Below are positions 30,298-34,305 of a DNA stretch of 36,841 bases, one piece after another. The stretch is from Pseudomonadota bacterium. Its GTDB lineage: Bacteria > Pseudomonadota > Gammaproteobacteria > Burkholderiales > JAKAFK01. Position 1 is the stretch's first letter. The number at the start of each line of letters is the position of its first letter. Position numbers and translations under genes: made by a program. The stretch is taken from NCBI GenBank assembly GCA_021817985.1, contig JAKAFK010000034.1, positions 1 through 36,841 of the forward strand. Reading direction: 5' to 3'. Below the pieces are notes generated by a model that saw only the letters and a list, made by a program, of their open reading frames with translations, was not told the origin of the DNA and did no database searches.

Positions 30298-30571
30298 GGC
30301 TGCGGCGTCGCACGCACGAGCCGCATCGAAGACCATTCTCCCGCAAGCCTCCGGTCGAGGGTTGACGCCCAACGGTACGCATCGCGAGGGAATGCACCAT
30401 CCGGCCGGCACGCATCTCGGCCCGTCCCTGGCGGGAGGACCTTCGGTCACAGGGCGCGCGCGGGACGACGAAGCGTCGCGGACGGCTGCGCCAAAGCGAC
30501 TTGAATGCCTTCCTTCGCCTTTCCCGACGCCACCGCCCGCTCTCCGAAAGGGGAGACGGATAGGCAAAGGA
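30298..30571. other. Gap between convergent decarboxylase and PEP-CTERM genes
   Basis: No gene or RNA family recognised. It contains a small GAAA-loop hairpin (CTCTCC, GAAA, GGGGAG) near 30540-30555 and the stronger hairpin listed next. Confidence 0.4.
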
Positions 30572-30597
30572 ATCGGCGGGACCGCATCCCCGCCGAT
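30572..30597. terminator. Hairpin between convergent genes, possible bidirectional terminator
   Basis: ATCGGCGGGA (30572-30581) pairs with TCCCCGCCGAT (30587-30597), one bulged C, 5-base loop. It lies 22 bases after the stop of the PEP-CTERM gene on the minus strand and within the run-out of the decarboxylase. There is no T run on either strand, so Rho-independent termination is uncertain. Confidence 0.45.
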
Positions 30598-30619
30598 GGG
30601 GCACTGGCGGCCTTTCTGA

Positions 30620-31354
30620 TCAGGCCCTGCGGCGCCTAACCGCGCTCAGCGCGACAAGGCCCACGCCCAGCAAGGCGATGCTAGGCGGTTCCGGGACCGT
30701 GGGGCGAGGGACCACTTGTGAAGCGGTGCCGACCGAGAAGTTGTCAAAGCCGAAACCATCCACGCCACCGGAACTGTTGCCGAACGTCACGTTTGTATAC
30801 GTATCGCCGGTATCGTAGAAGCCATAGTACAGCACGGAGCCGTTCTCCGGTTGGCTTCCGCCGCTCCCTATGAGGTTGGGCACAGTCAGGCTCGTGTGCG
30901 CGTTGTTGATATCGGTCAGCGTCAGGGTGAGTTGCCCGCCGAAATCGCCGATGTCCGTGGCATAAAAGCCAAACGCCGCAATCGGGCTGCTGAAGCCGAT
31001 GTCGAAGGTGTCGCTGAAGGTGTTGTAGTAGTTTGGGCTCGATATGGCGAAGCGCCCGGCACTGCTATAGTTCTGGATCGTTCCCCCGGTCAAGGTCGCC
31101 GTAACGCCGTTAGCGAAGTTCACCGGGACGGTCGTCACGCCACTTGCAACCGTGTCCATGCCGTCCGTGCCGATGTTTGTCAGGTTGGCGAAGAAACTCG
31201 CCTGGGCCGCATCCGAGTTCGGATGCGCAATCGGGGTGCTTCCTGTCGGATTGCCGTCTTCGCCGAAAAACGTGACGGGTGTCGCCTGCGCGCTGCCGAC
31301 TGCGAACAGTCCCATGACCGCGAGCGCGCAAGCCGTTAACGTTGCCGATTCCAT
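30620..31354 (-). CDS. PEP-CTERM sorting-domain protein
   Basis: A 244-residue exported protein. It has a signal peptide (residues about 1-25, ending in GSAQA), a Ser/Thr/Gly/Asn-rich beta-sandwich-like body (residues about 25-205; FDIGFSSPIAAFGFYATDIGDFGG and GGVDGFGFDNFSVG are typical of such proteins), and a C-terminal sorting signal: the VPEPPS motif, the hydrophobic IALLGVGLVALSAV and the basic tail RRRRA. PEP-CTERM proteins are processed by exosortase (EpsH) at the inner membrane and are tied to exopolysaccharide and floc formation. No exosortase gene is in the window. Upstream is AAGGGGG, a good ribosome site, and a sigma-54 promoter sequence. Third codon positions look less GC-biased than in the neighbours. 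Confidence 0.92.
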   Translation of the reverse strand: MESATLTACALAVMGLFAVGSAQATPVTFFGEDGNPTGSTPIAHPNSDAAQASFFANLTNIGTDGMDTVASGVTTVPVNFANGVTATLTGGTIQNYSSAGRFAISSPNYYNTFSDTFDIGFSSPIAAFGFYATDIGDFGGQLTLTLTDINNAHTSLTVPNLIGSGGSQPENGSVLYYGFYDTGDTYTNVTFGNSSGGVDGFGFDNFSVGTASQVVPRPTVPEPPSIALLGVGLVALSAVRRRRA

Positions 31355-31418
31355 CTCAAACCCCCTTTCGATAAAACGAACCCTAAGGACGAAATTTCAG
31401 AGCGCTGCTCAGTTTCGA

Positions 31419-31434
31419 TGCAATCGGCGTGCCA
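31419..31434 (-). promoter_or_regulatory. Consensus sigma-54 (RpoN) promoter of the PEP-CTERM gene
   Basis: The minus strand reads TGGCACG (31434-31428), four bases CCGA, then TTGCA (31423-31419). This matches the -24/-12 consensus TGGCACG-N4-TTGCW fully. It is placed about 65 bases upstream of the start codon, giving a leader of roughly 50 bases. It suggests control by an RpoN enhancer-binding protein, such as the PrsR regulator known from PEP-CTERM systems. Confidence 0.85.
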
Positions 31435-31455
31435 ACCTTACAATAATCCTTACAT

Positions 31456-31466
31456 ATCAATTTGAT
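31456..31466. promoter_or_regulatory. Perfect 11-bp palindrome upstream of the sigma-54 site
   Basis: ATCAATTTGAT reads the same on both strands apart from the central base. It is in an AT-rich patch (about 31360-31550) unlike the surrounding GC-rich DNA. It might be a regulator or bending-protein site for the RpoN promoter 22 bases away, but enhancer sites normally lie further upstream. Confidence 0.3.
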
Positions 31467-32154
31467 GCACATTCACTCGCAATCTTCATGGCGACGCAAT
31501 GGAACCAAACGTAAAAAATATCGACAACAACCTCCCCTTATCCTAATGACCACCGGCGAGCGCGGGGCAGTCGGCGAACCCTTGTTCAAAGGCGATCCGA
31601 GCAGCGCCGAACACGCCCTTGCCTCCGGTGGGCTGCGCGACAAAGCCGAACGATCTTCATCATTGCTCCAGCCAGTTCGCCGAGGACGAGGACCACTGAA
31701 ACTCCGAGGCCTTGCCTTGTGCTGTGAGACGGCTCCCTCATCACGGTGGACAAGGTGGCACCTGCAGGGCACGACGCCGCTCGCTGTCCACCCAATTTCT
31801 GCCCGCTTCCCGTCGCTTTGGGCGCCTCGTGGGCAGATTCCGCATCGGCACGGACCCACAAGACGCCACGTTGGACGGCAGGTCTATGGCGGCGCGGCTT
31901 CCCCGCCCCGGCCGGGCCTGCGTCTTGCCCTGGGGCGCGTTGCCGGACGAGCGCGCGGCCTGTGTAAGAAATATTGACAATCGGATATCGGGGCAGGGAA
32001 GGCAGCGGTTTCGCTGAGGAAGACACCCGGAATGGGGTGCGCCCGCCCCAGGGATGCGCGGAATGGCCCACGGCTCGGCGTGCCCGTCCGCGAGTCAGCC
32101 CGTGCCCGGCCACACGCCACTTCGTCCACCGGGACACAGGAAACCGGTCAGGGT
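31467..32154. other. Gene-free stretch upstream of the PEP-CTERM gene
   Basis: About 690 bases. The first 90 are AT-rich and belong to the promoter area; the rest is GC-rich with open frames on both strands, none of which I can identify. On the minus strand, residues switching between frames around 31600-31980 look faintly protein-like, so a decayed gene is possible, but no transposase motif or inverted-repeat ends were found. Confidence 0.35.
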
Positions 32155-34305
32155 CTATGGCGCCGGACGCGGCATCTCCAAGGCATCAAACAAGGGACCC
32201 AGATGCTTGGCGTACGGGCGCCAGCGCTGGATTGAAGTGCTGTAAATGGGCTGGCGCACCTGCCAAAGGCTATAGGTATAAACGGGACGCCCGCTCTGGT
32301 AGAAAGCAAGGCAGCGCTCGTCCCAGGGCAGACCGAGAAAGTCAACCAGCTTCCGGCTCCATCCCTCCTGGTCGCCCACGAGCGCCTCATAGGAGACATC
32401 GAACATCGAAATGGGCAGAACAGCGCGCCAGTGCGCCATGAGTTCCGCATAGTAGCGGTAGAAGCGCCCCAGGGCGTCAAGGTCATAGGTGTGGCGGTGG
32501 TCCGAAACGAAATCATGGAAGTAATTGGAAAGGCAGGTGTCGACGGGGTCACGCATGCAGTGAATGACACGGGCTCGCGGAAAAAGCAAAGCGATCAGGC
32601 CGAGACGCTCGAAGTTGTGCGGCATCTTGTCGACGCTGCGAAGCGCCTCGGGTGCATCCTGTTCGAGCCGCGCGAGGTACTCGCCAGCGAGAGATACCGC
32701 CACTTCGGAAGACAGTGCGGTGATGCATTCCGGATACGGTCGGGTGCCGCCCAACCGGCGGGGCAGCTGCCATTCGATTTTGCGGATGCCATCAAGCTCG
32801 CCGTGGCCGTGCACCTGCGGATGGCTGGCCAGGATCTGCTCCACGAGCGTCGTCCCGGACCGGGGCATCCCGACGACGAACACCGGACGCTCCGAATCGC
32901 TGCCCACTGCGCCTGCGTTGTTCGCGAAGCGGTCTTGGCCGAAGATAGCCCTCAACCGCGCCGCCTTGCTCCGCAGGTCCGCGATGTCGATCGGGAACTG
33001 CGCATGCCTCAGGTCGTTGGCGATGCGGTAGGAGGCAAAGGCGGCATCGGTATCGCCCATTTTCTCATAGCCGCTGCCGAGCGCGAACGCCAGTGACGCA
33101 CGTTGTTCGGTATCCAGCGTACCGAGATCCCGAACGCGCTCCAGCTCGCGAACCTGCGCCGTGGGATCGGCGCTCTCACTGATCAGGGCAAGGCAGAGAT
33201 GGGCATGGCCGTGAGCGGGATTGGACGCGATGGCATGCTCGAAGTCGATGATCGCGGCGTCAAAATCTCCCTGCGATTGATGGACCAAGCCGAGCATCGT
33301 GTGGCACTCCGCTGTGTCGCCGCCCTTCGCGAGCGCCTGAGCAAGGAGTAGTCGCGCCTCCTCGCAGCGACCTTGAAGATGGCGCGTGCGAGCCAACCCG
33401 TGATAAAGGAGGGGCGAGTTCGGGTCTAGGTTGAGTCCGCGCTCGAAGCAATCCGCCGCCGCCTCGAAATCCTGCAATCGATTGAGTACCTGACCGCGCT
33501 CGTAGAGCGCCGGTACCATGCCTGGACGAAGCTTGAGCGCTTCGTCCAGTGCGCGTACCGCATCATCGAGCCGATCAAGGGCATGGAGGACCACCCCCAC
33601 CTGATAGCGAGCCTCCGGCAGTCTGGGATCGAGCACGGCGGCACGCGCCAAGTGACGACAGGCGGCGGGAAGATCGCCCTTTCGTCTCAGCGCCATACCA
33701 AATTTGAAATGGATGCCGGCACTGTCGGGCTTGAGGGCCAAGGCGCGCTCGAACGCCATAATCGCGTCGTCGTGCCGACCAAATTCGGACAGCGCCGTCC
33801 CAAGATTCGAACACGCATCGACGTGGTTGGGCTGCGCCTTGACCACGATCTCGAGCTCCCTCGCCGCAGCGGGAAACGCCTTGAGCCCGAGGTGGGCCAT
33901 GCCTAGGCCGAAGTGGGCAAGCAGCGAATCCGGCTCGAGTTCGAGCGCCCGGCGATAGCAGGCGGCGGCCTCCTCAAATCGCTCCGACATCAGGTAAGCA
34001 TTGCCGAGATTGCCATGATAGGGCGCGATGCGTCCCTCGATGGCGATTGCCTGCCGCAGCCAGTCGACGGCGCGAGCATTCTCCCCGCGCTCGCGCGCCA
34101 GGACACCGAGAAGATGGAGGGCGGCGTGATCGGCCGGCGCCGCCGCGATGCCCACCCTCAGCAGATTTTCGCATTCGCCGTGCCTGCCCCGGCGAAGCAA
34201 TTCCACGGCTTGTGCCACGAGCGGGCCGGCTCCCGCCCCCAGGCGACCGGTGGACGGCATGCGTCCCCGCGGCGGACCGCCGCATCGCTTCCTCCCCTTG
34301 CTCAC
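32155..34305 (-). CDS. TPR-repeat protein with C-terminal sulfotransferase domain
   Basis: A 716-residue two-part protein. Residues about 30-400 carry nine or more tetratricopeptide repeats, for example GNLGNAYLMSERFEEAAACY and SNLGTALSEFGRHDDAIMAF. The C-terminal part from about 470 is a sulfotransferase of the Sulfotransfer_3 type: FVVGMPRSGTTLVEQILASH near 475-495 is the 5'-phosphosulfate loop of PAPS, and RDPVDTCLSNY near 583-595 is the 3'-phosphate site. Such enzymes move sulfate from PAPS to sugars, proteins or lipids. The substrate is not evident; the TPR part may recruit a protein. No signal peptide is seen. The neighbours are a PEP-CTERM gene and ychF, without an obvious sulfation cluster. 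Confidence 0.88.
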   Translation of the reverse strand: MSKGRKRCGGPPRGRMPSTGRLGAGAGPLVAQAVELLRRGRHGECENLLRVGIAAAPADHAALHLLGVLARERGENARAVDWLRQAIAIEGRIAPYHGNLGNAYLMSERFEEAAACYRRALELEPDSLLAHFGLGMAHLGLKAFPAAARELEIVVKAQPNHVDACSNLGTALSEFGRHDDAIMAFERALALKPDSAGIHFKFGMALRRKGDLPAACRHLARAAVLDPRLPEARYQVGVVLHALDRLDDAVRALDEALKLRPGMVPALYERGQVLNRLQDFEAAADCFERGLNLDPNSPLLYHGLARTRHLQGRCEEARLLLAQALAKGGDTAECHTMLGLVHQSQGDFDAAIIDFEHAIASNPAHGHAHLCLALISESADPTAQVRELERVRDLGTLDTEQRASLAFALGSGYEKMGDTDAAFASYRIANDLRHAQFPIDIADLRSKAARLRAIFGQDRFANNAGAVGSDSERPVFVVGMPRSGTTLVEQILASHPQVHGHGELDGIRKIEWQLPRRLGGTRPYPECITALSSEVAVSLAGEYLARLEQDAPEALRSVDKMPHNFERLGLIALLFPRARVIHCMRDPVDTCLSNYFHDFVSDHRHTYDLDALGRFYRYYAELMAHWRAVLPISMFDVSYEALVGDQEGWSRKLVDFLGLPWDERCLAFYQSGRPVYTYSLWQVRQPIYSTSIQRWRPYAKHLGPLFDALEMPRPAP

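Follow-up and report, generated by a model that had tools for sequence, protein, structure and literature searches.

The DNA analyzed here (the window, 36,841 nt) carries a PEP-CTERM protein gene away from the exosortase loci of its genome, and the question raised by this locus is which regulatory system reads such a gene. The preliminary description had placed it, as a lone gene behind a perfect sigma-54 promoter, in a PEP-CTERM regulon governed by PrsK/PrsR and RpoN. The features from which the answer is built are collected in table 1.

Table 1. Features of the PEP-CTERM locus and its promoter region in the window
Feature	Coordinates	Strand	Remarks
PEP-CTERM protein gene	30620..31354	minus	244 aa; PF07589 and TIGR02595 above cut-off
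Likely ribosome binding site AAAGGGGG	31361..31368	minus	Read by eye, upstream of the ATG
-24/-12 sigma-54 promoter element TGGCACGCCGATTGCA	31419..31434	minus	Exact consensus match
IHF-like box CATCAAATTGATA	31455..31467	minus	One mismatch to YAANNNNTTGATW; between activator box and promoter
Activator box TGTCGATATTTTTTACG (Haft motif 1, predicted PrsR site)	31510..31526	minus	75 nt before the promoter element
Second, distal activator box TGTCAATATTTCTTACA	31963..31979	minus	528 nt upstream of the promoter, same intergenic region
TPR-repeat sulfotransferase gene	32155..34305	minus	716 aa; adjoins the PEP-CTERM gene

The promoter element is as perfect as had been claimed. From 31434 to 31419 the minus strand reads TGGCACG-CCGA-TTGCA, with 0 mismatches to TGGCACG-N4-TTGCW; the GG-N10-GC spacing is kept in TGGCACGCCGATTGCA, and 64 nt (about 65 in the earlier estimate) separate the element from the ATG at 31354. 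It is the sole exact match in the window (shuffle mean 0.00). At two or fewer mismatches the window holds 4 matches against 6.85 expected, so that only the perfect match is informative. In the whole genome (3.97 Mb in 184 contigs) there are six exact matches and none to the reversed-pattern control. Three of the six (in the window and on contigs C102 and C128) have an activator box 62-75 nt upstream; another, on C161, lies inside an ORF, and the one on C22 is followed by an ORF of 229 codons whose start resembles a signal peptide. The sixth, on C68 (28604-28619, minus strand; locus L102), has an NtrC-type regulator gene on one side and on the other a gene read from its sequence as fliE, where a flagellar sigma-54 promoter would be expected. 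A search of 30400-32200 for sigma-70-like sites found none, which says little because shuffles yield just 0.4.

Upstream of the promoter, the activator box scores 28.1 of 32.7 bits, the top value among 73,650 positions in the window, which none of 5000 shuffles of the region reaches. The matrix behind these values comprises 13 sites, all from genomes other than the window's, and is partly circular: its sites were chosen for an in-register promoter and for likeness to a consensus drawn from the upstream regions of this genome, the window's included, and a weaker candidate (L062) was omitted. The last base of the window box is G rather than A (TTTACG vs. TTTACA). The distal box scores 21.7 bits, second best in the window, where the third best reaches only 8.4; no -24/-12 element was seen in the 123 nt that follow it. 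Double activator boxes also occur on C11 (33341 and 33530) and C78 (50019 and 49768). Two other readings of the upstream DNA were abandoned. Motif 1 as a TGTAAA-N5-TTTACA inverted repeat failed, the shared sequence of the upstream regions being TGTCGG-N4-TTTTACA, and TGTAAGG repeats between box and promoter were dropped as activator sites, with a best reading of 6.4 bits. Taken alone, motif 1 is uninformative genome-wide because at two or fewer mismatches it gives 38 matches vs. 35 in the reversed control. Box matches become informative once a promoter in register is demanded, as is the case for 11 of the 38.

These 11 pairs precede eight PEP-CTERM-like genes and three other positions. In detail, the PF07589 search of the genome gave nine hits at E ≤ 1, one of which (C36) was removed as a false positive, since the ORF reads by eye like the lipoprotein enzyme Lgt; a further PEP-CTERM-like gene behind the site C78:62942 (14.2 bits, below cut-off) brings the total to nine. 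The scan proposed in the preliminary description thus shows an activator box and an in-register -24/-12 site before eight of nine genes, a pair being counted when a box was followed by a strict GG-N10-GC site with three or fewer mismatches; in the eight pairs, box and promoter are 51-95 nt apart. The exception, on C54, has a promoter with one mismatch and no box in register.

Of the three other pairs, one is followed by a DsrE2 gene (C78:56272), one by a lipoprotein-like ORF (C102), and the third, on C128, by no evident ORF. This last site (L090, C128:9186-9280, minus strand) joins a perfect -24/-12 element to a box 62 nt upstream, with no evident gene for about 700 nt, and perhaps drives an untranslated RNA. 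The pair in front of the DsrE2 sulfur-carrier gene (L095, C78:56193-56288, minus strand) lies about 14 kb from the gene for XrtD; the DsrE2 gene adjoins an outer-membrane transport protein gene. On the XrtD contig (L095 and L096, C78:48-71 kb), genes with VPLPA-type or PEP tails have the same box and promoter, so a single regulator may serve the substrates of both XrtA and XrtD; the VPLPA-type tail there scores 25.0 bits (cut-off 25.35).

The proteins that such a regulon calls for are all encoded in this genome. There is one match to the DNA-binding domain of RpoN. PrsR (C11:27095-28426) scores 722.7 bits (cut-off 502.6), and beside it on C11 are PrsK (818.8, cut-off 300), PrsT (798.9, cut-off 312.2) and EpsB_2, the sugar transferase of the XrtA system (546.1, cut-off 393.35). 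Two exosortases of the EpsH family exceed their NCBIfam cut-offs, namely XrtA on C159 (325.6, cut-off 208), with an amidotransferase and a glycosyltransferase of the XrtA system nearby, and XrtD on C78 (556.2, cut-off 400). The search for IHF covered the alpha subunit, which is encoded on C94 (144.7 bits, cut-off 120.25).

The 244-aa product, predicted to be a cell-surface protein, has a signal peptide, recognized by eye, and a C-terminal VPEP...RRRR tail VPEPPSIALLGVGLVALSAVRRRRA. It scores 24.1 bits with PF07589 (cut-off 20.7) and 23.1 bits with TIGR02595 (cut-off 16); every named PEP-CTERM subfamily model that it matches stays under cut-off, and the flocculation-associated PepA model NF033554 is absent from its family matches at E 0.001. 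That the gene stands alone holds only in part. The next gene downstream is convergent, and a TPR-sulfotransferase gene sits 800 nt upstream. These 800 nt, from the ATG to the end of the sulfotransferase gene, are noncoding, above a threshold of 200 nt. The six mechanical ORFs of at least 90 aa that are inside the stretch or overlap one of its ends have no Pfam match at E 0.1, and the stretch has no match in a plasmid collection.

Eight relatives of the window protein were found in the scan of named genomes. The closest (L104, 77% identity over residues 1-242) is from an uncultured Nitrosomonadales genome, and its promoter region consists of TGTCGGAGTTTTTTACA, 63 nt and TGGCATGAAAGGTGCT. Box and promoter in register are present in only two of the eight relatives (L104 and L109). 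A list of 25 PEP-CTERM loci from relatives, with one locus entered twice, has such a pair in 12 of the 24 distinct entries. In L104 the neighborhood is also shared, with a TPR-sulfotransferase 64% identical to that of the window (L104 3803-5947) beside the PEP-CTERM homologue. A distant TPR-sulfotransferase adjoins another PEP/VPLPA-type gene on C78 (L095 6822-8651), and further loci are L133 and L139. By a strict pattern, a PEP-type tail is near the TPR-sulfotransferase in two of ten stretches, which come from 10 of the 15 matching relatives. Sulfation is possibly tied to exported PEP-CTERM proteins, judging from this gene order.

In a genome of the same genus (L063, G001:C96) the match is confined to residues 176-225 (67%), and L111 gives a similar hit near a contig end; these are perhaps decayed or cut copies. 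In L105-L110, from a Phycisphaerae MAG, a cyanobacterial MAG, a Gammaproteobacteria MAG, Comamonas and Rubrivivax, the same secreted domain ends by eye in PEP, PAP or VPSLG/VPTLG tails, an instance of tail swapping.

By its -24/-12 element and activator box, by the pathway genes and by the homologous pair in L104, the window gene joins the known PrsR/sigma-54 regulon as a new member. The earlier proposal is supported: rpoN and exosortase genes, whose absence would have spoken against it, are both present in the genome.

The arrangement of the promoter was then placed against that of related genomes. A search of 399 genomes of the order for TGTCGN6TTTACA followed, after a gap of 35-96 nt, by GGCN8TGCT gave 74 and 55 genomes with matches and at least 150 and 89 sites, of which the 239 listed sites were analyzed; the reversed-pattern control gave none among the matches listed. 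This strict pattern misses 10 of the 11 sites of the window's own genome, including that of the window (box end TTTACG, promoter TGCA). In the first 61 sites (L141-L200), an ORF with a PEP-CTERM-like tail recognized by a simple pattern follows within 350 nt in 44 cases; among the 17 without such a tail, two (L166 and L168) have PIPAP- or PIPG-like tails.

The spacers of the 239 listed sites, measured from box end to TGGC, form peaks at about 41 (three sites only), 52, 63, 73-74, 85-86 and 95 nt, the last coinciding with the end of the searched gap range, and the valleys between them are nearly empty. A period of 11.0 nt fits best (R = 0.739), and none of 500 uniform nulls reaches this R. Four sites with a spacer of 55 nt appear by eye to be one conserved coding stretch; when they are left out, R rises to 0.755 and, with peaks every 11.04 nt, 220 of 235 spacers are no more than 2.5 nt off a peak, where 43.5% are expected. 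Outside the main class the respective figures are 98 of 111 and 40%. The window, which is outside the 239-site set, has a spacer of 75 nt, 1.1 nt off a peak. The box-to-promoter spacing in the listed sites is thus helically phased, which is an addition to the published picture. In the parts of the open-licence literature covered by the search, neither helical phasing nor IHF is described at PEP-CTERM promoters: the main text of Haft et al. 2006 (PMC1569441) has nothing on either at the promoter, and the two papers found to contain both "PEP-CTERM" and "integration host factor" have the latter in their reference lists only.

A second regularity lies within the spacer, where WATCAANNNNTTR or its complement recurs. 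Among the first 61 sites, 34 have an IHF-like box at one or no mismatch (shuffle mean 9.25, maximum 16). From these sites, preferred positions were fixed by eye at 18-20 or 29-31 nt before TGGC for the complement and at 6-8 or 17-19 nt for the forward orientation; the positions are themselves about one helical turn apart. They were then applied to a held-out set, for which 100 of the 179 listed sites without a locus were fetched and 99 proved new; these are different sites, though they often share a genome with first-set sites, and the window belongs to neither set. A box is present anywhere in the spacer in 62 of the 99 (shuffle mean 15.2, maximum 23), at the preset positions in 52 (2.0, maximum 7) and as a perfect match at those positions in 18 (0.1, maximum 2).

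In the window the order is activator box, 42 nt, IHF-like box, 20 nt and TGGC, which is the geometry of L174, and the box falls in a preset position class; matches of the same quality number seven in the window, both strands considered. In the ten other sites of this genome the box is found in only two (C90 and C128). The window promoter shows the predicted, phased three-part layout in full. Very probably it is a PrsR-activated, sigma-54-dependent PEP-CTERM promoter with its three parts in fixed helical register.

The identity of the middle element is the point on which a different reading survives best. The phased layout may be real while the element is bound by a factor other than IHF, or is simply AT-rich DNA with an intrinsic bend. 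What is matched is no more than a consensus, AT richness is common among the spacers, and 47 of the 99 held-out spacers lack a match at one mismatch at the preset positions. Furthermore, one PEP-motif gene rose, instead of falling, in Geobacter ihf mutants (PMC7962754), a result that does not fit a simple activating role of IHF. On the contrary, the shuffles, which preserve AT content and dinucleotides, average only 2.0 at the preset positions vs. the 52 observed and 0.1 vs. 18 for perfect matches, and the gene for IHF alpha is present in the genome. A middle element other than an IHF site is accordingly judged possible but rather unlikely.

A second alternative concerns the activator. The genome encodes seven other NtrC-family proteins, any of which might drive this sigma-54 promoter in place of PrsR; their scores with the PrsR model (268-388 bits) stay under the cut-off of 502.6. 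The distribution of the box speaks for PrsR. Among the 399 genomes, PrsR is above cut-off in 81 of the 94 that bear sites (missing from 13) vs. 18 of the 305 others (Fisher p ~3e-52, kinship ignored), and within this genome the box stands before eight of the nine PEP-CTERM-like genes. Activation by another member of the family is thus improbable.

The phasing itself could be a legacy of shared ancestry among the promoters instead of a constraint, given that the sites are related and the statistics ignore kinship. A common origin would have to account for several distinct peaks with nearly empty valleys. Moreover, the signal persists in 163 unique genus-by-spacer values from 46 genera (R = 0.705, kinship not modeled by a tree), where again 0 of 500 uniform nulls reach the observed R, and in the 89 unique values left when the main peak is removed (R 0.68, reached by none of 1000 nulls). 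Ancestry as the whole cause is considered quite improbable, and constraint is preferred. Finally, that the -24/-12 match is fortuitous and the gene read from an ordinary promoter is barely credible: exact matches do occur elsewhere, one within the ORF on C161, but here the activator box is in register with the promoter and both elements are present in the homologue L104.

What is seen directly are the sequence elements, how they occur and are phased in relatives, and the protein genes; from these we infer the following course of phosphorylation, binding, bending, transcription and sorting. RNA polymerase with RpoN would wait at the -24/-12 element in a closed complex. PrsR, phosphorylated by the kinase PrsK, would bind the 17-nt box 75 nt upstream, and IHF would bend the intervening DNA at the IHF-like box. 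Since whole helical turns separate the activator box from the promoter, the AAA+ domain of PrsR would meet sigma-54 on the correct face and open the complex. The exported protein would then be handled by an exosortase, probably XrtA.

By this assignment a gene remote from the exosortase loci enters the PEP-CTERM regulon. As a member of a known regulon the gene itself is unremarkable, and the wider interest is in the phased three-part layout. The natural PrsR promoters, more than 200 among those listed, form a ready-made spacing series, which makes it directly testable when an enhancer-binding protein needs the right face of the helix and when it acts anywhere. Taking phasing and the IHF-like box into account should also make the prediction of PEP-CTERM regulons more precise.

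Among known systems, the closest is the element of Haft et al. 2006 (PMC1569441). It comprises a 17-nt motif 1 with the 3′ end TTTACA, sometimes repeated, a spacer (mean 62.8, SD 10.6, range 32-92, which includes the 75 nt of the window) and a motif 2 of the -24/-12 type, on average 71 nt before the start, and phylogenetic profiling linked it to PrsR, PrsK and PrsT. The window resembles it in having motif 1, spacer, motif 2, a single gene and a large noncoding upstream region, as well as PrsR, PrsK, PrsT and EpsH in the genome. It departs from that account, where the spacer is given as mean, SD and range, in the helical phasing and the IHF-like box added here.

In Aquincola tertiaricarbonis RN12 (PMC9850573), the mapped start site of pepA follows TGGCAC and CTGCTT, and the gene depends on RpoN1. 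The window gene is similarly a PEP-CTERM gene behind a -24/-12 element, whereas pepA encodes a different protein and lies upstream of prsT. Flocculation was not restored there by a prsK-prsR plasmid. The preliminary description, which took control by PrsK/PrsR and RpoN as established, was therefore too strong for this species, the sole case checked: the role of RpoN1 stands, and that of PrsK/PrsR was only inferred in the source.

IHF aids looping at sigma-54 promoters (PMC7057263). The layout found here is like that of IHF-assisted promoters with looping by a bacterial enhancer-binding protein (PMC7057263, PMC7408454), with an activator box, bent DNA in between and a -24/-12 element, the bend in our case being predicted. 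At glnA the distance is flexible, the NtrC site lying anywhere from 70 to 1000 bp or farther from the start site, and another, two-site NtrC system depends on the face of the helix (PMC7408454). Unlike at glnA, the spacers of the PrsR promoters are about 40-95 nt (box end to TGGC), with peaks one turn apart over the regulon. It is reasonably likely, though held with less assurance than the reading of the window promoter, that PrsR promoters constitute a sigma-54 class with a rigid, stereospecific short loop, in which a near box, the polymerase site and a bend made by IHF are kept in whole-turn register and the distance evolves mostly in one-turn steps, in contrast to the distance-tolerant NtrC enhancer of glnA.
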